From Geodermatophilus marinus (GTDB lineage: Bacteria > Actinomycetota > Actinomycetes > Mycobacteriales > Geodermatophilaceae): a DNA stretch of 64,000 bases. Both the position numbers and the translations under genes were made by a program. Each line of letters opens with the position of its first letter. The first letter of the stretch is position 1. Below, piece after piece: positions 7,414-52,769 of this stretch. A model generated the notes under the pieces. The model had not been told where the DNA came from, made no database searches, and worked only from the letters and a program-made list of their open reading frames with translations. The stretch lies in the NCBI RefSeq assembly GCF_003428645.1, contig NZ_QVQH01000003.1:1-64000 (forward strand), read 5' to 3'.

Positions 7414-8763
7414 ATGGCGAGCATGGACCGGCAGCAGGAGTTCGTCCTGCGCACCCTCGAGGAACGCGACATCCGCTTCGTGCGGCTGTGGTTCACCGAC
7501 GTCTCCGGCTACCTCAAGGCGGTGGCGGTGGCGCCCGCGGAGATCGAGGCGGCCTTCGCCGAGGGCATCGGCTTCGACGGGTCGGCGATCGAGGGCTTCG
7601 CGCGGGTCTACGAGTCCGACATGCTCGCCAAGCCCGACCCCGGCACGTTCCAGGTGATGCCGGCGGCCAAGGGGCAGGCCAGCGACACCGCGCGGATGTT
7701 CTGCGACCTCACGCTGCCCGACGGCTCGCCGTCCTGGGCCGACCCGCGCCACGTGCTGCGCCGTGCGCTGTCCAAGGCCGCCGACATGGGGTTCACCTTC
7801 TACACCCACCCCGAGGTCGAGTTCTTCCTGCTCAAGGACCTCCCGACCGACGGCGGCCCGCCCGAGCCCGCCGACACCGGCGGCTACTTCGACCTGTCCA
7901 CGCACAACGTGGCCCACGACTTCCGCCGCGAGGCGGTCTTCGCGCTCGAGGCCATGGGCATCTCGGTCGAGTTCAGCCACCACGAGGTGGCCCCCGGCCA
8001 GCAGGAGATCGACCTGCGCTACGCCGACGCCCTCTCCATGGCCGACAACATCATGACGCTGCGGCACGTCGTCCGGGAGGTCGCGCTCGGCCAGGACGTG
8101 CACGCCACCTTCATGCCCAAGCCGTTCACCGAGCTGGCCGGCTCGGCCATGCACACCCACCTGTCGCTGTTCGAGGGCGACCGCAACGCCTTCCACGACC
8201 CCGCCGACCCGATGAAGCTGTCGACCACCGGCAAGCAGTTCATCGCCGGGCTGCTGCACCACGCGCGGGAGTACACCGCCGTCACCAACCAGACGGTGAA
8301 CTCCTACCGGCGGCTGCTCGCCGGCACCGAGGCCCCGACCGCCGCCACCTGGGGCCGGGCCAACCGCTCGGCGCTGGTGCGCCTGCCGTCCTACAAGCCG
8401 AACAAGGGCCAGTCGGCGCGGGTCGAGGTCCGCTCGCCGGACTCGGCGTGCAACCCGTACCTGACCTTCGCCGTCCTGCTGGCGGCCGGCCTGCGCGGCA
8501 TCGAGAAGGGCTACGACCTGCCCCCCGAGGCCGAGGACGACGTGTGGTCGCTCACCGACACCGAGCGGCGCGCGGCCGGCTACGAGGACCTGCCGGTCTC
8601 CCTCGGCGAGGCGCTGACGGCCATGCAGGGCAGCGAGCTGGTCGCCGAGACCCTCGGCGAGCACGTCTTCGAGTTCTTCCTGCGCAACAAGTGGGAGGAG
8701 TTCAACGCCTACCGGCAGAATGTCACGCCCTGGGAGCTGCGCCGCTACCTGCCGGGCATGTAG
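7414..8763 (+). CDS. glnA2: Glutamine synthetase, GlnA2 type
   Basis: 449 residues (start MASMDRQQEF; a second ATG at 7423 is equally plausible) closely matching the actinobacterial GlnA2 line, with FVLRTLEERDIRFVRLWFTD at the N-terminus. Family motifs are intact: GFDGSAIEGF, the metal-binding HPEVEFFLL, AGSAMHTHLSLF, and the ANRSALVRLPSY / RVEVRSPDSACNPY region. Unlike GlnA1 at 59373-60806, the loop that carries the adenylylated Tyr in E. coli has no Tyr here: the stretch after DLPPEAEDD continues VWSL. It may therefore escape control by the adjacent GlnE. GlnA2-type enzymes are non-essential in M. tuberculosis; a polyamine or other gamma-glutamylation role is known for other paralogues and cannot be excluded. 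Confidence 0.93.
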   Translation: MASMDRQQEFVLRTLEERDIRFVRLWFTDVSGYLKAVAVAPAEIEAAFAEGIGFDGSAIEGFARVYESDMLAKPDPGTFQVMPAAKGQASDTARMFCDLTLPDGSPSWADPRHVLRRALSKAADMGFTFYTHPEVEFFLLKDLPTDGGPPEPADTGGYFDLSTHNVAHDFRREAVFALEAMGISVEFSHHEVAPGQQEIDLRYADALSMADNIMTLRHVVREVALGQDVHATFMPKPFTELAGSAMHTHLSLFEGDRNAFHDPADPMKLSTTGKQFIAGLLHHAREYTAVTNQTVNSYRRLLAGTEAPTAATWGRANRSALVRLPSYKPNKGQSARVEVRSPDSACNPYLTFAVLLAAGLRGIEKGYDLPPEAEDDVWSLTDTERRAAGYEDLPVSLGEALTAMQGSELVAETLGEHVFEFFLRNKWEEFNAYRQNVTPWELRRYLPGM

Positions 8764-39487: not shown

Positions 39488-41679
39488 GCGGGTGGCGGCC
39501 GGGTGGGTCCGCGGCGTTGCTCCCGATCGCCGTGGTCACCGCCGTCGTCGGGGGTGCGTACCTCGCCGTGGCCGCAGCCGCCGGGGCGCTGACCGGCCCG
39601 GCGGTCGCCGCGGCGGCAGCCACGGCGGTCGCCGCGGCCCTCGCCCTGCCCGCGTACCTCGGGGCCCGGCGCCTCGCCGACCTGCCGGCCCCGCGCGAGC
39701 CCCCGGCCGGCTACCGGGTGCTGGCCCAGCTGGCGGCGCAGCCCCCGCCGTCGCCCGGCGGCGTCCCCGACCTGGGGGCGGTCGTCGCGGCCGTGGGCCG
39801 GGGCCTGGGCGCGGGGCTGTGCATGCTGACCGTGCGGCGACCCGGGCTGCGCGACCGGGTGGTGACGTGGACCCGGGACGACGCGGAGGTCGCGCCGGCC
39901 CGCGAGGAGGTGCCCGTCCGGCACGGTGGGGTGGACGTCGGCCTGCTGACCGTCGACCGGGTGTCCGTGCCGGGGACCGAAGCGGAGCGACGGCGGCTGC
40001 TGGAGGCGGTCGCCAGCAGCCTCGGGGTGGTGCTGCAGGCGACGCGCTCCGGCATCGAGCTCGAGCGCCAGCTCCGGGCCGCGCTGGCGCACGCCACCGA
40101 CATCGCCGCCGCCCGCCGCCGGGCGGTCGCCGAGTCCGACAGCGAGCGCCGCCGCATCGAACGCGACCTGCACGACGGGGCCCAGCACCACCTGGTCTCG
40201 CTGAGCCTGGCCCTGGGGCTGGTGGAGCACGCCGTGACCGGCGGCCGGCTCGAGGACGCCCGCACCGGGCTGACCCGGCTGGCCGGGCAGGTCGACGCGG
40301 TGGAGGAGCTGCTGGGCCGCACCACGGCCGGGATGAGCTCCCGGGTGCTCGCAGAGGCAGGCCTGGTCGCCGCGCTGCGCGCCGAGCTCGGCGCCGAGGA
40401 CCCGCCGGTCGACCTCGAGCTCCCGGACCGCGCCGACCTCCCGCAGGACCTCCCGGTGGACATCGCCGCCGCCGTCTACTTCTGCTGCCTGGAGGCGGTG
40501 AGCAACACGCGCAAGCATGCGCCGGGCGCCCGCGCCCGGGTCCGGGTCGCGGTCGAGGACGACCGGTTGCGTTTCGCGGTGCACGACGACGGCCCGGGCC
40601 TGGACCCCGCGTCGGGGACCGCCTCCGCGGGGCGCGGCCTGCGCAACGTCGCCGCCCGGGTCGCCGCGGTCGGTGGCGAGGTGGAGGTGCGGGCGCAGCC
40701 GGGCAGGGGTACGAGCGTCGAGGGGGCCGTTCCCCTGCCCGCGACCACCTCCGCCCGCCCGGCCGCCGGCGGGCCGGTGGGGCCGGGCCTGCTGGACCAG
40801 GTGCGCACGCTCGTGCGGTCGGCCCGCGACGCCTGCCACGGCACCCCGCAGGCCGACCGGTTGGAGGCGCTCGCGCGGACGCTCGACGACCCGCTGCGGG
40901 TCTGCGTCACCGGACCGCCCGGCGCGCCGCTCGCCCGCGTCGCGCGGGCCCTCACCGCCCGACCCACCCCCGGCGTCCAGTACCTCACGGCGGAGCCGGC
41001 GGCCTCCGAACGCCCGGCGCCCACGCCGGCGGACGCCTACGTGCTCGTCCTCGACGGCGCCGGTGCCGACGACCCTGACCTGTTCCTGTGCCTGCCCGGG
41101 CGGGTCCGCCCCACCCAGGCCGTCGGCGTGCTCGTGGGGGAGGGGCCCGCACCCGCACTGCACCGGCTCTGCTCGGCCGTCGTGGCCGTCCCGCGCGACG
41201 GCGCGGAGGGCGCGCTCGCCCCGGTGCAGGACCTCGTCGGCATCCGGCTCGCCGCACGGGCCGGGGCGCTGCGCGCCCGCGCCGTCCTGGCCGTGCTCGA
41301 GGTCGTCCTGCAGGCCGCGCCCGCCCGGAGGGCCACGTGGTCGCTGCGCTACCGGGCCGACGAGCTCCGGTCCGGCGCCGCCGAGCTCGCCGAGCTCGAC
41401 CTCCTCGACGCGCTGTGGTCGGGGGAACTGGCCGTCCCGGACGAGCAGCGGCGGGCCGCGGAGCGGCTGCTCGGCGCCGAGGGCGTGGACCCGGCCGCCC
41501 GCCTCGGCTGCCCCGCGGACGCCGGTGCCGACGACCTGGCGCGCGCCGCCGGCGAGGCGCTGGCCGCGTGGCAGCGGCTCGCCACCTCCCCGGCCTCCGG
41601 CGCCGGTACCCGCCGGCTGGCCGCGGCGCTGGTGCTGGCCTGCGAGCGGCTGCTCGCGGCGACGCCCGCCCCGGCCTGA
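39484..41679 (+). CDS. Histidine kinase fused to a degenerate dynamin-type GTPase domain
   Basis: 731 residues. Two membrane spans (about 8-60), a GAF domain (90-195), a full NarL-type kinase core with RRRIERDLHDGAQHHLVSLS and His230, N-box EAVSNTRKHAPG, and G-boxes HDDGPGLDP and GRGLRNVAARV. From about 430 an extra 300-residue domain follows. I judge it to be a dynamin-family GTPase remnant. DDPLRVCVTGPPGAPLARVAR (about 468-488) sits where such proteins have EPLRVAVAGRxxAGKST, and the helical part (RARAVLAVLEVVLQ, LDLLDALWSGELAVPDEQR, RLLGAEGVDPAARLG) matches their C-terminal half as I remember it. The P-loop Lys-Ser is lost. Confidence 0.85.
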   Translation: MSGWRPGGSAALLPIAVVTAVVGGAYLAVAAAAGALTGPAVAAAAATAVAAALALPAYLGARRLADLPAPREPPAGYRVLAQLAAQPPPSPGGVPDLGAVVAAVGRGLGAGLCMLTVRRPGLRDRVVTWTRDDAEVAPAREEVPVRHGGVDVGLLTVDRVSVPGTEAERRRLLEAVASSLGVVLQATRSGIELERQLRAALAHATDIAAARRRAVAESDSERRRIERDLHDGAQHHLVSLSLALGLVEHAVTGGRLEDARTGLTRLAGQVDAVEELLGRTTAGMSSRVLAEAGLVAALRAELGAEDPPVDLELPDRADLPQDLPVDIAAAVYFCCLEAVSNTRKHAPGARARVRVAVEDDRLRFAVHDDGPGLDPASGTASAGRGLRNVAARVAAVGGEVEVRAQPGRGTSVEGAVPLPATTSARPAAGGPVGPGLLDQVRTLVRSARDACHGTPQADRLEALARTLDDPLRVCVTGPPGAPLARVARALTARPTPGVQYLTAEPAASERPAPTPADAYVLVLDGAGADDPDLFLCLPGRVRPTQAVGVLVGEGPAPALHRLCSAVVAVPRDGAEGALAPVQDLVGIRLAARAGALRARAVLAVLEVVLQAAPARRATWSLRYRADELRSGAAELAELDLLDALWSGELAVPDEQRRAAERLLGAEGVDPAARLGCPADAGADDLARAAGEALAAWQRLATSPASGAGTRRLAAALVLACERLLAATPAPA

Positions 41680-41756
41680 CCACCCGCGCCGGAGCCCGAC
41701 CCCCGGGCGGGGGTGGGGCGGACCCCACCCGCGGTCCGGGGGCTGCGCACGTGGAA

Positions 41757-41802
41757 GACGGGGGTGTGCTCGATCGTCCCCGCGCCGCCGGACCGCGACG
41801 CT
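41757..41802 (+). promoter_or_regulatory. Shared upstream element, copy C
   Basis: GACGGGGGTGTGCTCGATCG (41757-41776) is followed, 22 bases after CGAT (41771-41774), by GACGCT (41797-41802). The order and spacing match copies at 33671-33746 and 49633-49708. It lies 58 bases before the first gene of the lipase/MMPL operon. An adjacent GGTGGGG/CCCCACC inverted repeat at about 41712-41729 may be an operator. Confidence 0.55.
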
Positions 41803-41860
41803 TCTCCCACAGCGCACCACACCCGGGCAGCAGGCCGGGACTCCAGGAAGAAGGAAGACG

Positions 41861-42052
41861 ATGTCCGCTCCGCGCCCGTGCTACCGCCACTCCGGCCGCT
41901 GGATGGCCTACTGCGACGACTGCACCAGCTGGCACCTCTCCCGCGCGATCGCCGCCCGCGACGCCGCCGGGCACGACCACACCGCCTCCACGGCCGCCGT
42001 CGTGACCCTGCGGCCGGCTCCGCGCCGCGCGGTCCTCGCGCTGGTCGCCTGA
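41861..42052 (+). CDS. 63-residue Cys/His microprotein
   Basis: The N-terminal third contains Cys7, His10, Cys18, Cys21 and His25 (core YCDDCTSWH), an arrangement suited to binding one zinc. The rest is a helix rich in Ala and His (HDHTASTAAVV) with a basic, hydrophobic tail. It is the first gene after shared element copy C, preceded by AAGGAAG, and 42 bases before the lipase gene. I recognise no family. Position at the head of the operon would suit a regulator or anti-sigma-like metal sensor, but there is no direct evidence for that. Confidence 0.7.
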   Translation: MSAPRPCYRHSGRWMAYCDDCTSWHLSRAIAARDAAGHDHTASTAAVVTLRPAPRRAVLALVA

Positions 42053-42094
42053 CCCGCCCCGACCCCGACCACCGGACCCACCGAGGAGGCCCGC

Positions 42095-42901
42095 GTGCAC
42101 GCCCCGTCACCGCTGCCGGCAGCGGCTCTCGAGGCCCTCGGTGCCACCCAGGGGACGGCGGTGGCGGACCTCCTCCACCCGTTCGGCTCGCCCACCCTGC
42201 CCCGACCGCCCGCGCTGCACGGGCGGACCCCGGTCCCGGCCGCCGGGACGCCCGGGCACCGGACGCCGGTCGTCCTCGTCCACGGCTACGGGGGCGGCCG
42301 GGCCACCTGGTGGGCCCTGCGGAGCCGGCTGGCCGGTGCGGGGTTCACCGACCTGCACGTCATGACCTACAGCCCTCTCGCGCCCTGCGTCACCGAGATC
42401 GCAGGGACCCTGGCCCGCGAGTGCACCGACGCGATGGAGCGGGCCGGTACCGACCGGGTGCACCTCATCGGGCACAGCCTCGGCGGGGTCGTCGTCCGCT
42501 ACGCGGTCCAGGAGCTCGGGCTGCACGCCCACGCGCGGACCGCGGTCACCGTCGCCGCCCCCCACCGGGGGACGCTGACCGCGCTGCTGGGCCGCGGGTC
42601 GCTGGTGGCGCAGCTGCGTCCCGGCTCCCGGGTCCTCGACGACCTGCGGCGCCGGGCCCGGCCCTCCGCCGTCCGCTGGGTCTCCTACTGGTCGGACCGC
42701 GACTTCGTCGTCCGTCCCCACTCCGCCCGGCTCGACGAGGAGGCTCTCCGCGCCACCAACGTCCTGGTGCGCGGCGCCGGGCACCTCGGCATCGTGCGCG
42801 ACCCGCAGTTCCTCGGCTCGGTCGTGCACCTGCTGACCCACGGCACGCCGTTCGCGACGGCCGTGCCCACCGTCCGCGACCGCCCGCCGGTCGCCGCCTG
42901 A
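42095..42901 (+). CDS. Alpha/beta hydrolase, triacylglycerol lipase-like
   Basis: 268 residues. PVVLVHGYGGG forms the oxyanion strand-turn, Ser128 in LIGHSLGGVVVRYAV is the nucleophile (G-x-S-x-G), and the late GAGHLGIVRDPQ supplies the His; the Asp is probably in SYWSDRDFVVRP. It belongs to the LipA/PGAP1-like lipase group that acts on acyl esters. No signal peptide is apparent, so it may be cytoplasmic. Second gene of the operon; spacer to the next gene 86 bases. Likely supplies or removes fatty acyl groups for the other enzymes here. Confidence 0.9.
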   Translation: MHAPSPLPAAALEALGATQGTAVADLLHPFGSPTLPRPPALHGRTPVPAAGTPGHRTPVVLVHGYGGGRATWWALRSRLAGAGFTDLHVMTYSPLAPCVTEIAGTLARECTDAMERAGTDRVHLIGHSLGGVVVRYAVQELGLHAHARTAVTVAAPHRGTLTALLGRGSLVAQLRPGSRVLDDLRRRARPSAVRWVSYWSDRDFVVRPHSARLDEEALRATNVLVRGAGHLGIVRDPQFLGSVVHLLTHGTPFATAVPTVRDRPPVAA

Positions 42902-42987
42902 CCCGGCGCACCCGCGCCGCGCACCGCCCCGGTGCCGCCGGACCGCCAGGTCCGGCGATCCCCCCACCCCGAGATCGAGGTCCCGCC

Positions 42988-43383
42988 ATGCCCGCGTTCA
43001 CGTCCCAGGCCCAGGCCGCCGCCGTCTTCCCGCAGCTGTTCGAGATCCTCCTCGAGGACCCCCAGTTCGGGGCGATCGTGCGGGACCGCGGGCTGTCGGT
43101 GCGCTTCGTGCACACCAAGCCCGACCTCCAGCTGCACGTCGACGCCGACGGCGTCCGGGTCGGCGGCCCGCCCGCGCCCGCCTCGTTGACGATCACGATG
43201 TCCTGCGACACCGCGGACGCCCTGTGGACCGGCCGGCTGCTCATGCCCGTCGCGGTCGCCACCGGCCGGATCCGGATCAAGGGCAGCGTCGCCACCGTCG
43301 TCGAGTTCGTGCCGCTGCTGCGGCCGGCCTTCGACCGCTACCCCGAGCTCGCCGCGGCCGCCGGCGTGCCCGCCGCCTCCTGA
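42988..43383 (+). CDS. SCP2-like sterol/lipid carrier domain protein
   Basis: 131 residues consisting of one SCP2-like domain: an N-terminal helix (FPQLFEILLEDPQFGAIV), beta strands (VRFVHTKPDLQLHVDADG), then LTITMSCDTADALWTGRL and VATGRIRIKGSVATVVEF, the hallmark stretch of SCP2/alkyl-sulfatase C-terminal domains. These bind hydrophobic ligands such as acyl-CoAs or sterols. Between a lipase and an acyl-CoA dehydrogenase it would carry the acyl intermediate. No catalytic site is expected. Confidence 0.83.
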   Translation: MPAFTSQAQAAAVFPQLFEILLEDPQFGAIVRDRGLSVRFVHTKPDLQLHVDADGVRVGGPPAPASLTITMSCDTADALWTGRLLMPVAVATGRIRIKGSVATVVEFVPLLRPAFDRYPELAAAAGVPAAS

Positions 43384-43420
43384 CCGACCCCCACCTGCAC
43401 CCCCGAGGAGCGACCCCACC

Positions 43421-44644
43421 GTGCTCGACCTGACCGTCCCCGGGACCGCCGTCCCCACGTTCACCTCCCTGCCCCCGCACGTCGAGGAGCTGCGCGACCG
43501 CGTCCGCGCCTTCGCCCAGGAGCGGCTGCGCCCCGCCGTCCGCCGGCTCGACCAGGCCGACGCCGCCGACTTCGACTGGGAGCTGGTGACCGAGGGGCAC
43601 CAGCTCGGCCTGACCCGCCTGGTCATCTCCCGCCAGCACGGCGGCCTGGGCTACGGCGAGCTCGGCGTCGCCGTGGCCCTGGAGGAGCTCGCCGCCGTCG
43701 ACGCCGGCTACGCGCTGGTCTTCGGGGCGACCATGCTCGGCCAGGCGCCGCTGCTGCTGTCGGGTGACCCCGCGCTGCAGGCCCGCTTCCTGCCGTTGTT
43801 CGCCGGCGACGAGCCGGTCCTGGCGTGCAACGCCATCACCGAGGACCAGGCCGGCTGCGACCTGCTGATCCCCGAGAACGCCGTGCACGCCCGTGACGTC
43901 ATGCGGGCCCGCCGGGACGGCGACCACTACGTGCTCGACGGGGCCAAGAAGTTCATCACCAACGGCAAGGTCGCCCGCTACGCGACGGTGTTCGCCGCCG
44001 TCGAGGGCACCCCGGGGGCGAGCGCGCTGACCTGCTTCGTCGTCCCGCTCGACTCGCCCGGCGTGGAGCTCGGCGCGGTGGCGGACAAGATGGGCTACCG
44101 CGCCTGCCTGGGCACCGAGATGGCCTTCACCGGCGTCCGGGTGCCGGCCGAGAACGTGATCGGCGGCGAGGGCGGCGGTGTGTTCGTCAACGTCCAGCAG
44201 ATGAACATGGCCCGCGCGGCCGTGGCCGCGATCTCCACCGGCGTCGCGCGCGGCGCCCTGGAGCTGGCCCGGCAGTGGTGCGGCGAGCGCGTCCAGGGTG
44301 GGGTGCCGCTGTACAGGCACCAGTTCACCGCCCGCAAGCTGGCCGAGATGTCGATGAAGGTCGACGCCGCCCGGCTGCTGTACCTGCGGGCCGCCCAGCT
44401 GGCCGACACCGAGATCCCCGCCCCGGCCTACGAGCCCGCCGTCGCCAAGCTCTTCGCCGACCGGATCGCCATCGAGGTCGCCGAGGAGGCGATGTCCCTC
44501 ATGGGCGCCCGCGGCTACGTCCGCGACTGGGTCATGGAGAAGTACCTGCGCGAGGCGCTGGGCGCCCGCATCTACGAGGGCACGCCCGAGGTGCTGGCCC
44601 TGGCCATCACCGAGTCCCTGTACGCCGACGACGACGACCTCTGA
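43421..44644 (+). CDS. Acyl-CoA dehydrogenase
   Basis: 407 residues, a complete ACAD: N-terminal helical domain, central FAD-binding beta domain with ACNAITEDQAGCDL and YVLDGAKKFITNGKVA, and C-terminal helices with MGYRACLGTEMAF, the substrate loop, and ARIYEGTPEVLALAITESLY. The family introduces an alpha-beta double bond into acyl-CoA. Cys in the FAD motif (EDQAGCD) departs from the common G-S-D. Whether it acts on CoA or carrier-protein thioesters cannot be seen; in this operon it may tailor the acyl chain of a secreted product. Confidence 0.94.
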   Translation: MLDLTVPGTAVPTFTSLPPHVEELRDRVRAFAQERLRPAVRRLDQADAADFDWELVTEGHQLGLTRLVISRQHGGLGYGELGVAVALEELAAVDAGYALVFGATMLGQAPLLLSGDPALQARFLPLFAGDEPVLACNAITEDQAGCDLLIPENAVHARDVMRARRDGDHYVLDGAKKFITNGKVARYATVFAAVEGTPGASALTCFVVPLDSPGVELGAVADKMGYRACLGTEMAFTGVRVPAENVIGGEGGGVFVNVQQMNMARAAVAAISTGVARGALELARQWCGERVQGGVPLYRHQFTARKLAEMSMKVDAARLLYLRAAQLADTEIPAPAYEPAVAKLFADRIAIEVAEEAMSLMGARGYVRDWVMEKYLREALGARIYEGTPEVLALAITESLYADDDDL

Positions 44645-44674
44645 CCGGCACCCCCGAGACCCAGGAGCCGAGCC

Positions 44675-45586
44675 GTGTGCACCACGCCGACCAGCCCCAC
44701 CACCCGCCGGTACGCCGCCGACATCGTGGCGATGCACGACCGGATGACCTACGCCCGCCTGCTGGACCACCTGCCGCAGGACGACCTCCCGCACCTCGCC
44801 GTCCGCGGTGACGGGCTCGTGACCGTCGCGGCGACCACCGAGCAGCTGCCGCACCGCTACCTGCTCGGCCTGCAGGGCTTCCGCCTGGCCCAGTACCTGC
44901 AGCTCGGGTGGGCCTGCGAGGAGGCGCTGCACCGCAGTGCCGGGTTCTGCGAGCCCCTGCAGGCGCTGCACCCCGACGACGTGCACGTGCTGACCGCGAG
45001 CAGCCGGACCGGGCGGATCCTCGGCTACCTCAGCCTCACCACCTCGGGGGACGTCGCACCGCGGGAGCTGCGCGACCCGGACCGGGCGCGGTTCCCCGTC
45101 GAGGCCGCCCACCGGATCGACCTGTTCGACCGGGTCCCCGCCCCGGAGGGGGTGCGCAGCGACGGGGTGCGCGAGCTCAAGCGGTTCGTGCACGCGCGGA
45201 CGCTCACCGACCGGGCGCAGCGCCTGCGGGTGACCCTCGAGCTGCTGCTCGGCGCCGGGCGCACGCTGCTCGCGGTCGAGCCGGCCGTGCAGGTCCTCGT
45301 CGGGGACGTCGAGGAGGACGTCGCGCTGCGGCACCTGCTGCTGGCCGGTCTGGAGGTGCACCTCGTCGAGGACACCGAGCCGTGGCTGCCCGACGACGAC
45401 CTGCTGCACCTGGCCTACACCCGCCGCGGCGCGGTGAAGCCCTTCGTGGCGGGCGTCCCCGACGTCGCGGAGCTGCGGCAGCGCATCGAGCTGCTGGAGG
45501 CCACCCTCGCCTCCGAGGACCTCTTCGAGGCCGCCGACGCCTTCGCCGGCGCGGTCCGCGGCGCCACCCGGCGGGTCGCCGCCTGA
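44675..45586 (+). CDS. Unrecognised protein with possible autoinducer-synthase-like GNAT fold
   Basis: 303 residues, no signal or membrane segment. The central part has the order of elements seen in LuxI-type synthases: an N-terminal R/F/W region (GFRLAQYLQLGWACEEAL), acidic PDDVHVL, a Gly-x-x-x-Gly-Tyr strand turn (RTGRILGYLSLTT), and then VRELKRFVHARTL in place of the E-x-S-R-F block. A second half (LLAVEPAVQVLVGDVEEDVA ... EVHLVEDTEP) could be the second half of a GNAT fold. This is fold-level pattern matching by eye and might be wrong. Flanked by an acyl-CoA dehydrogenase and a DivIVA-like protein; it could acylate an amine or amino acid. Confidence 0.6.
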   Translation: MCTTPTSPTTRRYAADIVAMHDRMTYARLLDHLPQDDLPHLAVRGDGLVTVAATTEQLPHRYLLGLQGFRLAQYLQLGWACEEALHRSAGFCEPLQALHPDDVHVLTASSRTGRILGYLSLTTSGDVAPRELRDPDRARFPVEAAHRIDLFDRVPAPEGVRSDGVRELKRFVHARTLTDRAQRLRVTLELLLGAGRTLLAVEPAVQVLVGDVEEDVALRHLLLAGLEVHLVEDTEPWLPDDDLLHLAYTRRGAVKPFVAGVPDVAELRQRIELLEATLASEDLFEAADAFAGAVRGATRRVAA

Positions 45587-45615
45587 CCGTCCCCGCCCGA
45601 CCCCGAGGAGCCCCC

Positions 45616-46206
45616 GTGCCCATCGACCCCGCCGCCCTCCGGTCCCAGCAGTTCCGGGTGGTCTTCCGCGGCTACGACGTCGAGGAGGTCGACGCCTTCC
45701 TCGACCGGCTGGAGGAGCAGCTGGCCCGCCCGGCCGAGGTCCCCACCGCGCCGGAGGACGACGGCCCGGGCGGCCTCCCCGGCCGCGCGGTGCGCACGCT
45801 GCTGCACGCCGAGCAGATGGCCGAGCAGGTGCTCGCCGAGGCCACCGCGGAGGCCACCGCCGTCCGCACGCGGGCGCAGGAGGAGGCCGAGGCGATCCTG
45901 GCCGACGCCCGCGCCCGGGCCGCGCAGCTCACCGCCGGGGCCCACCTCCGGTCGGCCTCGGAGGTCGACGAGCTCGTCGCCCGCGGCCGCCGGCTGCGGG
46001 CCGAGCTCGACCGTCTCGAGGAGTCCGAGCGCCGCTGCCGCGAGGAGCTGCACGGCTGGCTCGACGCGCACGGCCGGCTGCGCGAGCCCCGACCGCCGGC
46101 GCCGGCGGTCCCGGAGCCACCGGCCCGCACCCCCGTCCAGCGCGACACCCCGCTCCCCGCCGTCCGCCGGGTCGTCACGACCCTCCCGATGTCCGCCGTC
46201 CGCTGA
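45616..46206 (+). CDS. DivIVA-domain coiled-coil protein
   Basis: 196 residues. The N-terminus VPIDPAALRSQQFRVVFRGY and DVEEVDAFLDRLEEQL match the DivIVA membrane-binding domain consensus. An Ala/Glu/Arg-rich coiled coil (about 60-150) and a Pro-rich tail follow. Small DivIVA-domain proteins localise partners to curved or polar membrane. It is not the essential Wag31 of this organism, since no ftsZ/sepF cluster is near and the domain is short. It could place the biosynthetic complex or the MMPL exporter. Confidence 0.85.
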   Translation: MPIDPAALRSQQFRVVFRGYDVEEVDAFLDRLEEQLARPAEVPTAPEDDGPGGLPGRAVRTLLHAEQMAEQVLAEATAEATAVRTRAQEEAEAILADARARAAQLTAGAHLRSASEVDELVARGRRLRAELDRLEESERRCREELHGWLDAHGRLREPRPPAPAVPEPPARTPVQRDTPLPAVRRVVTTLPMSAVR

Positions 46207-46243
46207 CCCCCGCCCCCGCCCCCCGCTCCCGGAAGGCACCGCC

Positions 46244-47134
46244 ATGACCCCGCAGGCCACCGACCTCTACGACGAGCTCACCTGCCGCAACCGCGGCTTC
46301 CTCCCGCCGGAGACCCAGGGGCGGCTGCGCGCGGCGACCGTGCTGGTCGCCGGCTGCGGGTCCACCGGCGGGGCCGCGGTCGAGCCGCTCGTCCGGCTGG
46401 GGGTGCAGGACTTCGTCCTCGCCGACAACGGCACCTACGAGCTGAACAACCTCAACCGGCAGAGCGCCGCGCAGGCCGACGTCGGCGCGTACAAGGCCGA
46501 GGTCTGCGCCCGGCACGTGGCCGAGGTCAACCCGCACGCCCGCACCCGGGTGGACACCGACGGCATCCGGCCCGGCACCGTCCGCGGGATGGTGGCCGCC
46601 TGCGACGTGGTCATCGACGGCGTCGACGTCACCGAGGCCGCCGGGTGGCGCGCCAAGTACGCGCTGCACGAGGCCGCCGCGGAGCTGGGACGCCCGGTGA
46701 TCTCGGGCTACGACATGGCCGGCACCCAGTACGTGCGGTTCTACGACTACCGCCGCACCTCGGCGCCGTTCGACGGCGCGGTCACCCGGGAGCAGGTCGA
46801 GGCCGGGGCGACGTGGCGCCTGCTGCGGCAGGCGGTGCCCCTGCGCGTGGTCCCGGTCGAGATGCTCGAGAGCGCTCGCCGCGCGGTCGCCTCCGGGGAC
46901 GGGTCGGTCTCCCAGCTGGTCTACACCTCCATGCTGTTCGGCGCCCTGGCCTCGCGGATGGTCGTCGACGTCCTCGACGGCCGCCCGGTCCGCCGGCACA
47001 CCGTGGTCGACGTGCACCGCGCGGTGCGCCCGCCGGCGTCCGCCCTGCGCGCCCGGCTGCGCAAGCCGTGGGTCGCGGCGCTGGCCCTGCGGGACCTGGC
47101 GGTCCTCGAGCGCGGCCCCGGCCGCCGCCGGTGA
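46244..47134 (+). CDS. E1-like (ThiF/MoeB family) adenylyltransferase
   Basis: 296 residues. The Rossmann start VLVAGCGSTGGAAVEPLVRLG and DNGTYELNNLNRQ(S) followed by GAYKAEV are the ATP-binding features of ThiF/MoeB/E1 enzymes. ATP-contacting acidic DGVDVTE also fits. It lacks the zinc-binding CxxC pairs of MoeB/ThiF and has no obvious conserved catalytic Cys, as in E1-like enzymes that modify peptide or amide C-termini. No ThiS/MoaD-like partner ends in Gly-Gly nearby. It overlaps the MMPL gene by 4 bases (GTGA), which ties it to the export step. Confidence 0.85.
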   Translation: MTPQATDLYDELTCRNRGFLPPETQGRLRAATVLVAGCGSTGGAAVEPLVRLGVQDFVLADNGTYELNNLNRQSAAQADVGAYKAEVCARHVAEVNPHARTRVDTDGIRPGTVRGMVAACDVVIDGVDVTEAAGWRAKYALHEAAAELGRPVISGYDMAGTQYVRFYDYRRTSAPFDGAVTREQVEAGATWRLLRQAVPLRVVPVEMLESARRAVASGDGSVSQLVYTSMLFGALASRMVVDVLDGRPVRRHTVVDVHRAVRPPASALRARLRKPWVAALALRDLAVLERGPGRRR

Positions 47135-49590
47135 TCGCCCGCTTCGCCTCGTTCACCCGCCGGGCCCGCTGGGCGATCGCGGTCGTCTGGGTGCTCGCCG
47201 TGGCCGGGGCGGCCGTCGTGGCCACGACCCTCCCCGGCAAGCTCAGCGGCGGCGGGTGGGACGTCGAGGGCTCGCAGTCCGCGGCCGTCGAGGCGGCGCT
47301 GCGGGAGGGCTTCGCCGGTCGTGGCGAGAGCACCCTCACCGTCGTCGTCCGGGACCGGCAGCACACGGTCGACCAGGAGCCGTTCGACGGCCGGGTGCGG
47401 GAGGTGCTGACGGCGGTGGCCGAGGAGCCGGCGCTGGACGTGCGCAGCAGCTACGGCTGGTCGACCCTCGGCCCGGACGCGCGGGCCGCGTTCGTCGGTG
47501 CGGACCGGCGCACCGTGACCGAGGTCGTGGGTCTCGGCGTCGACGACGGCCACGCGCGGCAGGAGCTGCCCGAGGTGCAGGACCGGCTGCGCGAGCGGTT
47601 CGCCGAGCAGGGCCTGGACGTCTCGGTGGTCGGCGCGGCCGCGTTCTGGGGCGAGGTGAACGAGCTCAGCGAGCAGGGCCTGGTCCGCGCCGAGCTGATC
47701 ACGCTGCCGCTGGTCGTGCTCGTGGTGGTGCTGCTGTTCGGCGGCGTGGTGGCGGCGCTGGTGGCGCTGTCGGTCGGGGTGACCTCGATCGCGTTCACCC
47801 TGGCGCTGCTGAGCGTGCTGGCCGGCTCCGTCGAGCTGTCGCTGTTCGTTCAGAACACCGCCACCATGCTGGGCCTGGGCGTCGGCATCGACTACTCGCT
47901 GTTCGTCATCGCCCGCTTCAAGGAGGAGCTGGCCGCCGGCCGCGACGTCGAGAGCGCGATCGCCACCACGCTGCGCACCGCGGGGGAGACGGTGGTCTCC
48001 TCCGGTGTCACCGTCGTCGCCGCCATGTGCACGCTGTTCCTGGTGCCGCTCGGGGTCATCGGCTCGATCGCGCTCGGCGCGGTCGTCGTCGTCGCCTTCT
48101 CCGTGCTCACCAGCGTGCTGCTGCTCCCGGTGCTCCTGCAGCTGCTCGGTCGGCGCGTCGACCGGTGGGTGGTCGTCGTCCGCAAGGGCACCCACCGCCG
48201 CCCGGCCGCCGCGCGCTGGGCCGCGTTCGCCGGCCGCGTCATGCGCCGGCCGGTGGCGTTCCTCACCGCCTGCGTCGCCGGCCTGCTCCTGCTCGCCGCC
48301 CCGTCGCTGGGCCTGGCCACGTTCACGCCCGACGCCCGGATCATCCCGGCCGGTGAGCCGGTGCGGGCCGGCTACGCGCTGGTGCAGGACCAGTTCGGGG
48401 TCGGCTCGACGGCCCCGCTGCAGGTCCTGGTCAGCTCACCGGAGCCGCTCGGCCCCGACGACGGCGCCGCGGTCACCGACCTGGCGCAGCGGCTGCAGGA
48501 GCTGCCGTCGGTGGTCCGGGTGGACTCCGCGCTGCCGGCGCTGGCCGCCGCGGTCCCGGGCGACCCGCTGGCCGCGCTGGCGCCCGACGCCCGGGCGGCG
48601 CTGCCCCCGGACCCGCGCCGGACCGTCGACCACTTCGTCTCCGCCGACGGGCGGCGGCTCCTGCTCAGCGTCGTCCCCGACGGGCCGGCCGCCGCCGAGC
48701 GCACCCAGGAGCTGCTGGGGGAGGTGCGGGCCGAGGCCGCCCGGACCGCGGCCCCGGGGCTGGCGGTCGACGTCGGCGGCGAGACCGCGCAGGGGGTGGA
48801 CAGCAACGACACCATCACCGAGAACATGCCGCGGGTGGTGCTGGCGATGCTGGCGGTCATCTACCTGTTCCTGCTGGTCGCCTTCCGGTCGCTGTTCCTG
48901 CCGCTCAAGGCGATCCTCATCAACCTGCTGTCGGTCGCGGCCACCTACGGCGCCCTCGTGCTGGTCTTCCAGCACGGCCTCGGCGCCGACCTGCTGGGCT
49001 TCGAGGAGACCGGGTACGTGCAGAACTTCGTCCCGGTGCTGCTGCTGACCCTGCTGTTCAGCCTCAGCACCGACTACGAGGTCTTCCTGCTCAGCCGGGT
49101 GCGCGAGGAGCACCGGCGGACCGGTGACGACGCCGGCAGCGTCGCCACGGGGCTCGCTCGGACCGCACCGCTCATCTCCGGCGCGGCGCTGCTCATGGTC
49201 GTGGTGTTCGGGGCCTTCTCCTTCGCCGGCATCCTGCCGATGAAGCAGCTCGGCTTCGGCATGGCCGTCGCCATCGCGCTGGACGCCACCGTCATCCGGC
49301 TGGTCGTCGTCCCCGCATCGATGCGGCTCATGGGTGCCTGCAACTGGTGGATGCCCCTGCAGCGGCACACCCGGGCCCGGCGCGCGGCACCCCGCCGCCC
49401 AACCCGGGGGCACCCGACGGAGGCATCCCGGCCGGCCGTTCCCGGGGCGGCCGCCCGCCCGGCCCCCGCCCGCGCCACCGCTCCCGCCCGTGCCACCGCT
49501 CCCGCCCGTGCCACCGCTCCCGCCCGTGCCACCGCTCCCGCCCGTGCCACCGCTCCCGCCCGTGCCACCGCCCCCGTCGCAGGTGCCTGA
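47131..49590 (+). CDS. MMPL family RND-type exporter
   Basis: 819 residues with the MMPL duplicated layout: helix 1, a large periplasmic domain, helices 2-6 (with GLGVGIDYSLFVIARFKEEL), second domain, and helices 8-12 with LFSLSTDYEVFLLSRVREEH. The two Asp-Tyr motifs carry the proton relay. MMPL proteins flip or export lipids and acylated metabolites. Being coupled to the E1-like gene and preceded by acyl enzymes, it is the likely exporter of the operon's product. The C-terminus is unusual: an Arg/Ala/Pro tail that includes six copies of Pro-Ala-Arg-Ala-Thr-Ala. Confidence 0.93.
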   Translation: MIARFASFTRRARWAIAVVWVLAVAGAAVVATTLPGKLSGGGWDVEGSQSAAVEAALREGFAGRGESTLTVVVRDRQHTVDQEPFDGRVREVLTAVAEEPALDVRSSYGWSTLGPDARAAFVGADRRTVTEVVGLGVDDGHARQELPEVQDRLRERFAEQGLDVSVVGAAAFWGEVNELSEQGLVRAELITLPLVVLVVVLLFGGVVAALVALSVGVTSIAFTLALLSVLAGSVELSLFVQNTATMLGLGVGIDYSLFVIARFKEELAAGRDVESAIATTLRTAGETVVSSGVTVVAAMCTLFLVPLGVIGSIALGAVVVVAFSVLTSVLLLPVLLQLLGRRVDRWVVVVRKGTHRRPAAARWAAFAGRVMRRPVAFLTACVAGLLLLAAPSLGLATFTPDARIIPAGEPVRAGYALVQDQFGVGSTAPLQVLVSSPEPLGPDDGAAVTDLAQRLQELPSVVRVDSALPALAAAVPGDPLAALAPDARAALPPDPRRTVDHFVSADGRRLLLSVVPDGPAAAERTQELLGEVRAEAARTAAPGLAVDVGGETAQGVDSNDTITENMPRVVLAMLAVIYLFLLVAFRSLFLPLKAILINLLSVAATYGALVLVFQHGLGADLLGFEETGYVQNFVPVLLLTLLFSLSTDYEVFLLSRVREEHRRTGDDAGSVATGLARTAPLISGAALLMVVVFGAFSFAGILPMKQLGFGMAVAIALDATVIRLVVVPASMRLMGACNWWMPLQRHTRARRAAPRRPTRGHPTEASRPAVPGAAARPAPARATAPARATAPARATAPARATAPARATAPARATAPVAGA
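49465..49572 (+). repeat. Six in-frame 18-bp repeats in the MMPL tail
   Basis: Each unit encodes Pro-Ala-Arg-Ala-Thr-Ala. Copies 2-6 are almost identical at DNA level (CCCGCCCGTGCCACCGCT); the first has a CGC for CGT and the last diverges at its end. Identical third positions point to recent slippage rather than selection on the protein. Confidence 0.9.
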
Positions 49591-49632
49591 CCCGTGGGGC
49601 GGGATCTCCCCCGTCCGCGGGCGGGTCCGCCC

Positions 49633-49708
49633 CACCCCGGGAACGGGGGGAGAGGGCGGCGGACCGGGGGGCTGCCCGATCGTCCCGGGCCGGCCGCGCC
49701 ACCAGGCT
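49633..49708 (+). promoter_or_regulatory. Shared upstream element, copy B (sigma-factor gene)
   Basis: CACCCCGGGAACGGGGGG (49633-49650), then CCGGGGGGCTGCCCGATCG with CGAT at 49677-49680, then CAGGCT starting 22 bases later (49703-49708). It shares the exact 15-mer CCCGGGAACGGGGGG with copy A and TGCnCGATCGTCCC with copy C. It lies 59 bases before the sigma-factor ATG, so the sigma factor may drive itself and the other two units. Confidence 0.55.
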
Positions 49709-49767
49709 CGGTGTCGAGGAACCCGGCAGCGCGCCGTCCCTCCGGCGCCGACGAGACGAGGCACGAC

Positions 49768-50475
49768 ATGACCGTCAGCCCGCGCGAGCCCACCCGCCCC
49801 CGCGGCGCAGCCACCGGCAGGACCCGCCGACCGGACGCCGTCCGGCCGGTGCCGGTGCCCGCGCCGCGGCCGGGGACCCCGGCGGACCGCCGCGCGGGCC
49901 ACCGGGCCACGGCCGAGCTGCTCCGGAGGGCGGCCCACGGCGACCGGACCGCCTGGCAGCACGTCGTCGAGCGGTACGGACCGCTGGTGTGGTCGGTCGT
50001 GCACGGCTTCCGGCTGCCCGAGGCCCAGGCCGCGGACGCGGTGCAGACCACCTGGCTCAGGCTGTTCGAGCACGCCGGGGCGATCCGCGAGCCGGAGCGG
50101 CTGCCCGGCTGGCTGCGCACCACCGCGCGTCGCGCCTGCCTCGAGGGGATCGGCCGGGCCCGCCGCGAGCAGCCGTGGAACCCGCACGGCCGGCAGGGCC
50201 TGGGCCGCGAGCGCGCGTGCGAGCGGATCGACGGCGACCCCGAGGCCAGCCTGCTCCGCCGCGAGCAGCTGGCATCGGTCCGGTCCGCCGTCCGGGAGCT
50301 GCCCGAGCGTTCCCAGCGGCTGCTGGAGCTGCTGGTCGCGTCCCCACCGCTGAGCTACGAGGAGATCGGGGGCCGGCTCGGCATGCCGGTCGGCAGCATC
50401 GGCCCGACCCGCGCCCGCCTGCTGGCCCGCCTGCGCACGGACCTCGCAGCGGCCGGCCTGACCGACGCCGCCTGA
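49768..50475 (+). CDS. RNA polymerase sigma-70 family (ECF-like) sigma factor
   Basis: 235 residues. Region 2 runs from AAHGDRTAWQHVVERYGPLV through VQTTWLRLFEHAGAI; region 4 has ERSQRLLELLVASPPLSYEE, IGGRLGMPVGSIGPTRARLL, the helix-turn-helix that reads the -35. A Pro/Arg-rich N-terminal tail (1-45) is extra. No anti-sigma factor gene is adjacent, which is unusual for an ECF factor. GAGACGAGG precedes the ATG at 49768. The upstream region carries copy B of the shared element, so autoregulation is likely. Confidence 0.92.
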   Translation: MTVSPREPTRPRGAATGRTRRPDAVRPVPVPAPRPGTPADRRAGHRATAELLRRAAHGDRTAWQHVVERYGPLVWSVVHGFRLPEAQAADAVQTTWLRLFEHAGAIREPERLPGWLRTTARRACLEGIGRARREQPWNPHGRQGLGRERACERIDGDPEASLLRREQLASVRSAVRELPERSQRLLELLVASPPLSYEEIGGRLGMPVGSIGPTRARLLARLRTDLAAAGLTDAA

Positions 50476-50565
50476 GCGAGAGCACCACGTATCAGGCCGC
50501 CGCCCCGCCCCTCCTGACACCACCGCCGTCCCCGCCGTGGGACACCCAGCCGAGAGGAACAGCCC

Positions 50566-52206
50566 GTGCCCGCAGAGCCCCCCGAGTTCCGCCGCCCCGC
50601 CCCTGCCGGGCCCGACCCCCGGCAGCCCGGCTACGACGCCATCGTCACCGGGGCCGGCGCCGGCGGCCTCACCACCGCACTCACCCTGGCGCAGCAGGGC
50701 GCCCGCACGTTGGTCCTGGAGAAGAACCCCTACGTCGGCGGCTACGCCCACGGCGACGGCGAGCAGGGCTTCCGCTGGGACCACGGCGGGCACGTCCTGC
50801 TCGGCTACCGGCTCGGGATGCCCACCCGCCGGGTGTTCGAGCGGCTCGGCATCGACCGGCGCATCGCGATGGTCCCGGACCTGCAGACCTTCCAGTGCGT
50901 CTTCCCCGACGAGCGGACCGAGATCCCGGCCGACCTGACGACGGCCGCCGAGCGGCTGTCCGAGCAGTACCCGGCCGAGCGGGACGGGATCACCCGGCTC
51001 CTGCTGGTCATGGAGCGGATGGTCGCCGACCTCGACGTCGTCGTGCCCTCCTTCCGGATCGCCGACCACCCCGGTGAGCGCCGCCTCCTCGACGGCCTGC
51101 TCGAGCAGTTCCAGCGACCGTGGCTGGGCGACGCCGTCGCGCCGCTGGCCGGCCGGCTGCGCCTGCCGGGGCACACGCTGCTGACGTACCAGACCCGGAC
51201 GCTGCAGCAGCTGCTCGACGAGCACCTGCGCGACCCGGCCCTCAAGGCGACCCTGTCCATGCTCTGCGTCGGGATCGGCACCGCGCCCTCGGAGCTGTCC
51301 GCCGTCATCGCGTCGGTCTTCCTGGTGCACGCGCTGCGGCCCATGTGGATGCCGGAGGGCGGCTTCGGCCGGCTGGCCGAGGTGCTGCGCGCCATGTTCC
51401 TCGAGGCCGGAGGCACGATCGTCACCGGGGCGGAGGTGGAGCGGGTGCTGGTCACCGGCGGCCGGGTCCACGGCGTGCGCACCGTCGACGGCCGCGAGTA
51501 CCGGGCCCGCGCGGTCGTCTGCGCCTCCGACGCCCGTCGTCTCTACACCGAGCAGCTGCCCGCCGGCGTCGTCCCCCGCAGGCTGCGCTCCGACGTGGGG
51601 ACCGCGCCGACCACGCCGGCGTTCTTCCAGGTCCAGCTCGGCATCGACACCGACCTGGCCGAGCACGCCGCCTCGGTCAAGCGGCTGAACTTCGTGTACC
51701 CGCACCGCGACATCGACAAGGCGATGGCCAACTTCCCGCTGGGCAACGTCGAGGAGGCGGCGTACTACCTGTACGTCGCCACCTTCCACCAGCCCGAGCT
51801 GGCCCCGACCGGCATGCACTCGATCAAGCTGGAGTGCCCCACCCGGCTCGACAGCGTCGGCATCGACTGGGATCGGGACAAGGACGCCATCGCCGACGTC
51901 TTCATCCGCCGCACCGAGGAGCTGATCCCCGATCTGCGCCGGCACGTCGTCGTCCGGCGGGTGGTCACGCCGCTGGACATGGCGCGGCGGACCAACAACT
52001 CCGACGGTGCCTTCGCCGGGTGGGCCTTCGTGCCGCAGATGCTCACCCGCGGCCGGCCGCAGCAGCGCTCGCCGCTACCGGGTCTGTACCTGGCCGGGCA
52101 CTGGACGACGCCCGCGGCCGGGCTGCCGTGGGTGGTGCTGTCGGGCTACAACACCGCGGGCATGGTGCTCGCCGACGCCGGAGGGCACCCCCGGTGGGCG
52201 CACTGA
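50566..52206 (+). CDS. CrtI-like FAD-dependent oxidoreductase (phytoene desaturase family)
   Basis: 546 residues. N-terminal dinucleotide-binding YDAIVTGAGAGGLTTALTLA and LEKNPYVGGYAHG; C-terminal LYLAGHWTTPAAGLPWVVLSGYNTA is the FAD-binding tail typical of carotenoid desaturases and isomerases. No phytoene synthase is adjacent, so the substrate is unknown; oxidation of a polyene or other lipid is plausible. It follows the sigma-factor gene by 90 bases with no terminator. The next gene overlaps its end by 13 bases. Confidence 0.9.
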   Translation: MPAEPPEFRRPAPAGPDPRQPGYDAIVTGAGAGGLTTALTLAQQGARTLVLEKNPYVGGYAHGDGEQGFRWDHGGHVLLGYRLGMPTRRVFERLGIDRRIAMVPDLQTFQCVFPDERTEIPADLTTAAERLSEQYPAERDGITRLLLVMERMVADLDVVVPSFRIADHPGERRLLDGLLEQFQRPWLGDAVAPLAGRLRLPGHTLLTYQTRTLQQLLDEHLRDPALKATLSMLCVGIGTAPSELSAVIASVFLVHALRPMWMPEGGFGRLAEVLRAMFLEAGGTIVTGAEVERVLVTGGRVHGVRTVDGREYRARAVVCASDARRLYTEQLPAGVVPRRLRSDVGTAPTTPAFFQVQLGIDTDLAEHAASVKRLNFVYPHRDIDKAMANFPLGNVEEAAYYLYVATFHQPELAPTGMHSIKLECPTRLDSVGIDWDRDKDAIADVFIRRTEELIPDLRRHVVVRRVVTPLDMARRTNNSDGAFAGWAFVPQMLTRGRPQQRSPLPGLYLAGHWTTPAAGLPWVVLSGYNTAGMVLADAGGHPRWAH

Positions 52207-52769
52207 CCCCGACCGAGAGGCGCAACCTCGCCACGATGGCGGCGGTGGTACCGCACTGGAACCGGCGCGACGTCGCCGGGATCCTGTCCCACTACGACGA
52301 GGCCATCACCTGGCACGACCGGGCCCGCGGGCGGAGCTACCACGGCAAGGCCGAGGTCGGCCGCTTCCTCGCCGCCCTCTTCGCCGCCGTCCCCGATCTC
52401 CGGCTGGACCTCACCAGCCGGGTGCCGCACGGGGACCGGGTCGCCGAGGAGTACACGATCACGGGCACCCACCTGGGGCCGCTGTTCGGCCTCCCGCCGA
52501 CCGGCCGGCCGCTGCGCATCCAGGCGGTGAGCTTCGTGCGGTTGCGGGACGGACGGCTCGCCGAGGACACCTTCTACGTCGACCTCGCGGGCGTGCTGGG
52601 GCAGATGGGGCTGTTCCCGCCGCTGGACGTGGCCGACACCCGCTGGGGACGGCGGGCCCTGCAGGTGGCCGTCGTGCTCCGCTCGCCGCGGCGGGCGCTC
52701 GCCGTCCGCCGGGCCCGAGGCCCGGCCGGCGGGCCGGCTCCGGGCCGATCCCGCCGCTGGACCCGGTGA
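52194..52769 (+). CDS. SnoaL-like polyketide cyclase family protein
   Basis: 191 residues. One NTF2-like/SnoaL domain: NLATMAAVVPHWNRRDVAGI, a Gly-Lys turn after WHDRARGRSYHGKAEV, then LTSRVPHGDRVAEEYTITGT and the LLFGLPPTG(R)PL loop and SFVRLRDGRLAEDTFYVD. Such domains cyclise or hydrate ring systems or simply bind ligands. A basic, Pro-rich C-terminal extension (160-191) is extra. Overlap with the oxidoreductase gene suggests the pair acts on one substrate. The gene ends before a strong stem-loop. Confidence 0.88.
   Translation: MGALTPTERRNLATMAAVVPHWNRRDVAGILSHYDEAITWHDRARGRSYHGKAEVGRFLAALFAAVPDLRLDLTSRVPHGDRVAEEYTITGTHLGPLFGLPPTGRPLRIQAVSFVRLRDGRLAEDTFYVDLAGVLGQMGLFPPLDVADTRWGRRALQVAVVLRSPRRALAVRRARGPAGGPAPGRSRRWTR

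Follow-up and report, generated by a model that had tools for sequence, protein, structure and literature searches.

A patchily distributed gene module of Geodermatophilus marinus that may work like acyl-oxazolone pathways

Introduction

In the tyz, trz and oxz systems, which represent the acyl-oxazolone (azlactone) pathways, an acyltransferase works with a flavin desaturase and with a cyclase of the ThiF-like kind, and the chemistry of tyz and trz leads from acylation of an amino acid through flavin-dependent desaturation to an ATP-dependent cyclisation by a ThiF homologue (PMC10404671, PMC12856293). Both pathways were studied with Rhodococcus jostii RHA1 as laboratory host, and oxazolones hydrolyse (PMC12856293). 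The gene mmpL9 flanks tyz, and transport of tyrazolone by its product was suggested by the authors (PMC10404671). Here we analyse a gene module of Geodermatophilus marinus (GCF_003428645.1, contig NZ_QVQH01000003.1; genome of 5,227,744 bases, 5.23 Mb), located in a stretch of 64,000 bases that we call the window, and built around an SCP2-like carrier, an acyl-CoA dehydrogenase (ACAD), an orphan protein of 303 residues (p303), an E1/ThiF-like enzyme (E1) and an MMPL transporter. We suggest tentatively, as a possibility short of a probable one, that this patchily distributed module makes and exports a small acylated, desaturated and carboxyl-activated lipid and works like the acyl-oxazolone pathways.

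With tyzACB, the genes of tyrazolone, the module has in common the make-up of a lipid-handling set, with a ThiF-like enzyme, a flavin enzyme, a candidate acyltransferase and an mmpL gene nearby, but tyzACB uses a nitroreductase-family flavin enzyme (FDO) where the module has an acyl-CoA dehydrogenase, and the module adds SCP2, SnoaL and CrtI partners and has its MMPL gene overlapping the E1 gene (PMC10404671). p303 has no sequence link to FeeM or to the proteins labelled TrzA-type below, in a comparison that did not include TyzA. The tryptazolone genes trzAS are similar to the module in a ThiF domain with a motif Asp, predicted to be ATP-dependent in the module too, and in trzAS the acyltransferase gene adjoins the cyclase gene; TrzS, however, is a fusion of cyclase and FDO, whereas the module E1 stands alone in an array without an FDO (PMC12856293). 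The likeness extends to the clusters for N-acyl dehydrotyrosines (stieleriacine, thalassotalic and kyonggic acids), which are tight sets of an acyltransferase, a ThiF family protein and an oxidoreductase, but employ nitroreductases together with NAS enzymes that homology identifies, and for which no MMPL exporter is named in the section consulted (PMC12479983).

The locus had been pointed out by an earlier examination of the letters and open reading frames (ORFs) of the window, the sequence-only reading, which knew of no described system with this set of genes. No description of the exact set was found in the literature searched (open-licence papers), and in this sense the statement holds, but the combination of acyltransferase, flavin desaturase and ThiF-like cyclase is already described for tyz, trz and oxz.

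Results

The core genes travel together. They are missing from most genomes of the genus, among them one with an empty site. SCP2-ACAD-p303-E1-MMPL, with the SnoaL gene, makes up the conserved core. A scan of about 85,000 species genomes by exact 8-residue peptides, which finds near relatives only, located p303 in two named contigs, those of G. poikilotrophus DSM 44209 (L012) and Humibacillus sp. DSM 29435 (L013). The Humibacillus locus reads SCP2 (60% identity), ACAD (78%), p303 (57%), a 569-residue protein with SBP_bac_11 and VWA domains, E1 (60%) and MMPL (59%), with a SnoaL homologue (52%) divergent to SCP2 at its head; the SCP2 copy there has no Pfam match at E<=0.01. Because this order is kept in a bacterium of another order (NCBI places Humibacillus in Micrococcales, Intrasporangiaceae, and G. 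poikilotrophus, the closest named relative with the array, in Geodermatophilales), the linkage of the core is more than chance. Independent scattering of the genes among relatives, the outcome that would speak against a single unit, did not occur for the core: SCP2-ACAD-p303-x-E1-MMPL stays in order at 57-78% identity. In the Humibacillus locus the slot of the DivIVA gene between p303 and E1 is occupied by the gene of the 569-residue solute-binding and VWA protein (L013 10911-12620).

G. poikilotrophus also has these genes (lipase 69%, SCP2 77%, ACAD 88%, p303 82%, MMPL 81%, DivIVA 54-58%, microprotein 56% over residues 2-50), but this synteny is weaker evidence, since the two-component genes in front of the array are shared too. 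The genome G051 was taken, by inference, as G. poikilotrophus DSM 44209. Whole-genome searches returned p303 from the window genome and G051 among 112 genomes of the family (one marginal match set aside), and from the window genome alone among 394 genomes of the class (two marginal matches set aside); weak partial matches in G014 (E 2.4e-4, 36% over 91 residues), G167 (E 0.0016) and G460 (E 0.0076) were not counted. There was no credible p303 on plasmids (one match at E 4) or viral contigs (0). E1 is 81%, 83% and 60% identical in three relatives, the last being Humibacillus, and at 81-100% identity it occurs in three of the 112 family genomes (window, G044 and G051), the other listed matches reaching at most 41%. 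Exactly the same three of 26 genus genomes have the CrtI-like gene (E<=1e-60) and E1 at more than 80% identity. In G044 the contig C195 (3,852 bases) carries DivIVA, E1 and most of MMPL, C279 starts at CrtI and C34 ends about 130 bases beyond the histidine kinase; this genome shows a partial module, as the missing genes are taken to fall in assembly gaps. DivIVA is 60% identical in G044.

Not all genes of the array belong to this core. The hydrolase, the microprotein, DivIVA, the sigma gene and CrtI have no match in the 20.9-kb Humibacillus locus, to which the search was confined (tblastn at E<=1e-3 for the first three). Two hydrolase-like ORFs lie beyond the Humibacillus MMPL, and the best blastp match to the window lipase is at E 0.017 and looks unrelated. 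It seems that the hydrolase and DivIVA were added locally, because neither has a match at that locus.

In the genome G054 (L062) this neighbourhood lacks the module but keeps the two-component genes as well as those of the microprotein and the sigma factor. Alignment by blastn of positions 41500-50600 of the window to L062 joins 41521-42069 with 7275-7818 and 49608-49799 with 7875-8060, and the missing stretch between them is given in Table 1. No match to the module genes, CrtI or SnoaL was found in 17 kb of G054 at E<=1e-6. Since the microprotein (55% identity, L062 7616-7801) sits at this empty site, it is a resident of the locus and not a part of the module by origin; it has no Pfam or NCBIfam family. 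A microprotein-like gene, also of 55% identity, lies in front of the two-component set in G057 (L063 484-651). The CrtI-like gene, which accompanies the module in the genus of the window, and the SnoaL-like gene, both downstream of the sigma gene, belong with the module.

Gain of the module is a simpler reading than its loss, because only three of the 26 genus genomes carry it. No mobile-element genes were seen among the genes scanned by Pfam. Base composition was rejected as a mark of foreign origin, as the module is not distinct from its surroundings in 1.5-kb steps.

The array consists of eight co-directional ORFs, each with a third-position GC of 0.95-0.99. The distances are 42 bases from microprotein to lipase, 86 from lipase to SCP2, 37 from SCP2 to ACAD, 30 from ACAD to p303, 29 from p303 to DivIVA and 37 from DivIVA to E1, and E1 and MMPL overlap by 4 bases (GTGA). 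MMPL is followed after 177 bases by the ECF-type sigma gene, the CrtI-like flavoprotein and the SnoaL-like protein (Table 1). Prediction of sigma-70 promoters gave none, against 0.1 in shuffles, and of terminator-like sites one, against 0.9.

Such an eight-gene array on one strand was what the sequence-only reading had described, and it is borne out, with gaps of 29-86 bases and the one overlap. Of the families it named, hydrolase, ACAD, DivIVA, ThiF/E1 and MMPL are confirmed by Pfam and SCP2 is marginal, while its autoinducer-synthase-like protein, p303, has no family; its inclusion of the microprotein has to be withdrawn after comparison with G054. The idea of one dedicated system stands as far as the core genes lie together in Humibacillus and E1 and CrtI occupy the same three of 26 genomes, and appears not to extend to the lipase, the microprotein and DivIVA, which are without a match at the Humibacillus locus.

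Table 1. Positions of the genes and sites discussed, numbered along the window
Feature	Position	Strand	Remarks
Element GGGGNNNGCYCGATCGTCC, copy 1	41761..41779	+	100 bases before microprotein start
Cys/His-rich microprotein, 63 aa, resident, in front of the module	41861..42052	+	
Stretch missing at the G054 empty site	42070..49607	+	7,538 bases vs 56 in G054; limits are alignment ends
Alpha/beta hydrolase (lipase/esterase-like, GHSLGG motif), looks accessory	42095..42901	+	Abhydrolase_1 1.5e-10 (41.6 bits), Lipase_2 4.2e-5
SCP2-like small lipid-binding protein, core	42988..43383	+	SCP2 20.8 bits, cut-off 21.3 (marginal)
ACAD family flavoprotein, core	43421..44644	+	Pfam N, M, C domains; Acyl-CoA_dh_1 126.3 bits
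p303, orphan 303-aa protein, core, proposed acyltransferase	44675..45586	+	no family match
DivIVA-domain coiled-coil protein, looks accessory	45616..46206	+	DivIVA 7.2e-11 (42.6 bits)
E1/ThiF-like adenylating enzyme (predicted), core	46244..47134	+	ThiF 2.7e-28 (99.2 bits)
MMPL/RND transporter, MmpL3-like, core	47131..49590	+	MMPL 1.3e-85 (287.7 bits)
Element GGGGNNNGCYCGATCGTCC, copy 2	49667..49685	+	101 bases before sigma start
ECF-type sigma factor, resident	49768..50475	+	Sigma70_r2 3.2e-12; TIGR02937 72.8 bits
CrtI/phytoene-desaturase-like flavoprotein	50566..52206	+	Amino_oxidase 6.4e-28; crtI_fam 1.7e-49 but under its cut-off
SnoaL/NTF2-like protein, start uncertain	about 52194..52769	+	SnoaL 3.6e-25 (scanned from 52203)

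E1/ThiF enzymes are related to the enzyme that starts ubiquitin tagging. The best NCBIfam model for the E1 of the module is PRK08223 (3.6e-26, under its cut-off); ThiF, MoeB and the Rv1355c (TrzS) family rank behind it, and solved structures resembling it include TcdA and MccB. The residues D61, N69, R72, K84 and D128, which we take to be those of the ATP site, are present in the alignment. In a comparison with one row per label (rows with the same first eight letters merged), R15-N16 (the RN motif) and N71 are common to the module E1 and the TrzS-type, Rhizobiaceae and FeeM-linked rows, and the MoeB rows differ; in the TrzS-type rows the position of D128 is also Asp. TrzS-type is our own label, as the annotation Rv1355c family is carried by the Rhodococcus copy (L065) alone. 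TrzA-type is also our label, for ORFs like the one that stands in front of a ThiF-flavin fusion gene in L051; that protein has no Pfam match, but its profile is similar to FeeM to a degree that no shuffle reached (0 of 100). Replacement of an Asp of this motif by Ala in TrzS (D217A) abolished cyclisation (PMC12856293), and D128 would be the counterpart of D217. In a first tree of 25 rows, with alternate TrzS-type rows dropped, the module E1s stand beside the TrzS-type rows with support 80/89 and with a long-branch warning; TyzB and OxzB were not among the rows of this or of the second tree considered below.

Gene context points in the same direction. A search of the class gave E1 matches in 59 of 296 genomes at E<=1e-15, from which 30 loci were listed, 29 of them outside the window, and a TrzA-type ORF lies within the 1.5-kb flank in 19 of these 29 best non-self loci. 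In the phylum (396 genomes, E<=1e-21) four genomes matched: that of the window, G536, G548 and G632. The G548 gene overlaps a FeeM gene on the same strand (FeeM 55.5 bits; L071 7787-9279 for the pair), and that of G536 is convergent with a gene for a GNAT/PEP-CTERM-type acyltransferase (Acetyltransf_5 40.6 bits; L069 7361-8915 for the pair). Neighbourhoods were examined in three of 121 plasmid records with a match, and one Rhizobium and one Ensifer plasmid among them carry E1 relatives of 37-40% identity near GNAT and nitroreductase-like genes, the latter scoring 27.8 bits in Ensifer (over the cut-off) and 16.9 in Rhizobium (under it). It is likely, from context and motif, that E1 is akin to the oxazolone cyclases, a matter that phylogeny does not settle. 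The two plasmid neighbourhoods (L016 9036-14056, L017 9042-14184) read hypothetical, ThiF, hypothetical, GNAT and nitroreductase-like, and look like oxazolone-type clusters.

None of the three p303 homologues matched a Pfam or NCBIfam family at E up to 10, nor did their three-row profile match a PDB sequence at E up to 10; at the sequence level the acyl-homoserine lactone (AHL) synthase family PF00765 was found in 0 of 3 at the same limit. The sequence-only reading had called this protein autoinducer-synthase-like, which, with no family, structure or profile match, was rejected as unproven. By eye, the order of strands and helices and the stretch VRELKRFV are reminiscent of FeeM/AHL-synthase proteins. 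When profiles are aligned locally, the best alignment spans VRELKRFV with four FeeM-type rows but covers 34 columns before it with seven. We propose p303 as a candidate acyltransferase.

ACAD has its N, M and C domains and matches PDB 4u83 at 3.8e-61 with the YEGT motif aligned, the Glu of which is presumably the catalytic base. Enzymes of this family normally act on thioesters. Relative to 4u83 there are 8 additional residues after the AG-D motif, so that the substrate may be unusual, and among 394 class genomes ACAD has no match at E<=1e-110 other than the window's own.

The transporter contains two MMPL stretches, and its translation shows paired D-Y motifs (GIDYSLF and STDYEVF), which we take to be the functional mark of MMPL/RND transporters. 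Its best solved-structure match is MmpL3, the exporter of trehalose monomycolate, at about 1e-75, versus about 1e-35 for MmpL4/5. It is unlike MmpL3 in scoring 313 bits with the NCBIfam MmpL3 model, under the cut-off of 1400, and in being linked to an E1 gene. An 18-base tandem repeat of 6.2 copies with 97% matches, encoding a repeated APARAT, lies inside the 3' end of the gene (window 49465-49576).

A 19-base element, GGGGNNNGCYCGATCGTCC, precedes both the microprotein and the sigma genes (Table 1). Copy 1 has the module downstream of it, and copy 2 has first the ECF sigma gene and then CrtI-SnoaL. These are its two exact matches in the whole genome, and a reversed control pattern has none; at up to 2 mismatches the window has three matches versus 1.05 expected, a number reached by 7 of 100 shuffles. 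With a shorter form at up to 1 mismatch there are three matches in L062 of G054 (7 of 200 shuffles reach that) and seven in L012 of G. poikilotrophus (0 of 100 shuffles); in both, the element stands before the microprotein and sigma genes, with one of each pair mismatched, and further matches occur elsewhere. The flanks of six copies align with a mean identity of 54%, the element core and a CCCCAC box being kept. This arrangement suggests a single regulator for the module and CrtI-SnoaL, possibly the ECF sigma factor.

The surroundings of the array hold one more feature, adjoining the two-component gene set, an Hsp70-like domain fused to a beta-propeller (window 34054-36537, minus strand).

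Discussion

From the gene families and the comparison with tyz and trz, it would be logical to suggest the following course. First, p303 would acylate an amine with an acyl-CoA, the amine being probably an amino acid; second, ACAD, perhaps with the CrtI-like flavoprotein, would desaturate either the acyl chain or the amino-acid part. The E1/ThiF-like enzyme, with the ATP-site residues that we see in it, would then adenylate a carboxylate with ATP, leading to cyclisation or coupling, its substrate being our supposition. The SCP2-like and SnoaL-like proteins, as members of their families, may hold the hydrophobic intermediate, which the MmpL3-like pump may carry to or across the envelope. The coherent pathway from lipid release to export, which the sequence-only reading had drawn, is retained here in part: the lipase with its lipid release, and DivIVA, look accessory, and acyl coupling depends on p303.

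A number of observations weigh against this course, and we take them together. No nitroreductase-family match exists among the 10 array and neighbour proteins of the Pfam scan, to which the search was limited, the flavin enzymes there being ACAD and the CrtI-like protein, and because the array has no nitroreductase we do not file the module among the acyl-oxazolone systems and say only that it may work like them. ACAD may serve acyl-CoA supply instead of acting on an amino-acid part. For p303 the hhalign score with FeeM is 15.8, which 23 of 150 column shuffles equal, so it is not significant, against a positive control, TrzA-type with FeeM, of 23.2 and 0 of 100 shuffles; TrzA-type with p303 gives E 0.37. 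In E1 the D128 column is Glu in the FeeM-linked rows and Q73 is missing from the TrzS-type rows. The sisterhood with the TrzS-type rows was lost in the second tree, which also bears a long-branch warning; it has 21 rows, with 6 left of the TrzS-type, a long one taken out and two FeeM-linked ones added. For the three best class matches of E1 (L019-L021) the neighbours are of other kinds: by eye, either genes of the nitrate-reductase type, or an aminotransferase together with a peptidase and a short ORF resembling GNAT. The ThiF-like gene of G632 (L070 7743-8555) has no FeeM or TrzA-type neighbour, and an E1 ORF occurs at 0 of 6 FeeM loci (3.2-3.5 kb each) from 198 phylum genomes, in a search that missed the G548 FeeM and is not exhaustive. 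The neighbours in G632 and the six FeeM loci weaken the proposed course as well as its most specific form, given below, and pairing of FeeM and E1 as a general rule was not borne out. Around the ThiF-like gene of G632 (L070 2625-9380) we see by eye a condensation-domain protein, a pyridoxal-phosphate (PLP) enzyme and a phosphopantetheinyl transferase.

The alternative that survives best, and which we hold to be unlikely though by no means far-fetched, is a module for an envelope lipid, without amino acid or oxazolone: ACAD, SCP2 and SnoaL would modify an acyl lipid, which the MmpL3-like pump would then flip to the outer envelope, and the part of E1 would be to activate a fatty acid that is to be attached to a glycolipid or protein. 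The much closer relation of the transporter to MmpL3 than to MmpL4/5 agrees with it, and the SCP2-like and CrtI-like partners fit long hydrophobic substrates; yet ThiF-like enzymes related to E1 are often near N-acyltransferase-type genes (the 19 of 29 class loci and two of three phylum loci), which points to acyl-amino-acid chemistry, and the 10 scanned proteins include no glycosyl- or mycolyltransferase. It is improbable that E1 adenylates a peptide or a carrier-bound acid, as in a MccB-like or nonribosomal-peptide setting, while p303 does tailoring of an unrelated kind. TcdA and MccB among the similar structures, the 63-residue protein at the head of the array and the nonribosomal-peptide-like setting in G632, seen by eye, would suit such a peptide or small-molecule maker, but the microprotein is a resident found without the module in G054, and without a tblastn match (E<=1e-3) in the Humibacillus locus, and no peptide synthetase is among the 10 scanned proteins. 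A catabolic lipid operon of hydrolase, carrier and ACAD, followed by unrelated genes by chance, is given little probability as well: lipase, SCP2 and ACAD are families often met in the breakdown of fatty acids, but the hydrolase lacks a match at the Humibacillus locus, where SCP2 and ACAD are still accompanied by E1, p303 and MMPL, the ACAD is not a housekeeping form, being matched in one of 394 class genomes, its own, and the seven genes are jointly absent from G054 at its empty site. A system for ubiquitin-like conjugation or for defence against phages, to which the ThiF/E1 domain and E1-E2 matches in PADLOC (best 1.5e-15) could lead, is very improbable, and the anti-phage reading was rejected, as these matches are partial, spanning 44-160 residues of 426-778-residue profiles in the E1 part only, no Ubl, E2 or JAB domain is found among the 10 scanned proteins, and the partner genes encode lipid proteins.

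We return to the acyl-oxazolone-like pathway. In its most specific form, which we regard as doubtful, the module would be a new oxazolone-like lipid branch, with p303 as an acyltransferase family for which no outside relatives were found, ACAD in the place of the nitroreductase, a ThiF-like cyclase that stands alone and an MmpL3-like exporter dedicated to the product, a block gained behind a resident ECF-sigma promoter pair and producing a secreted signal or an envelope lipid. p303 would then be a protein family without any described relative.

Oxazolone lipids are a recent find, and transport by the mmpL9 near tyz is a suggestion only. In what looks like a soil genus, we have here a pump gene that overlaps the gene of E1, and this makes both the substrate of a ThiF-like enzyme and export by an MmpL protein directly testable.

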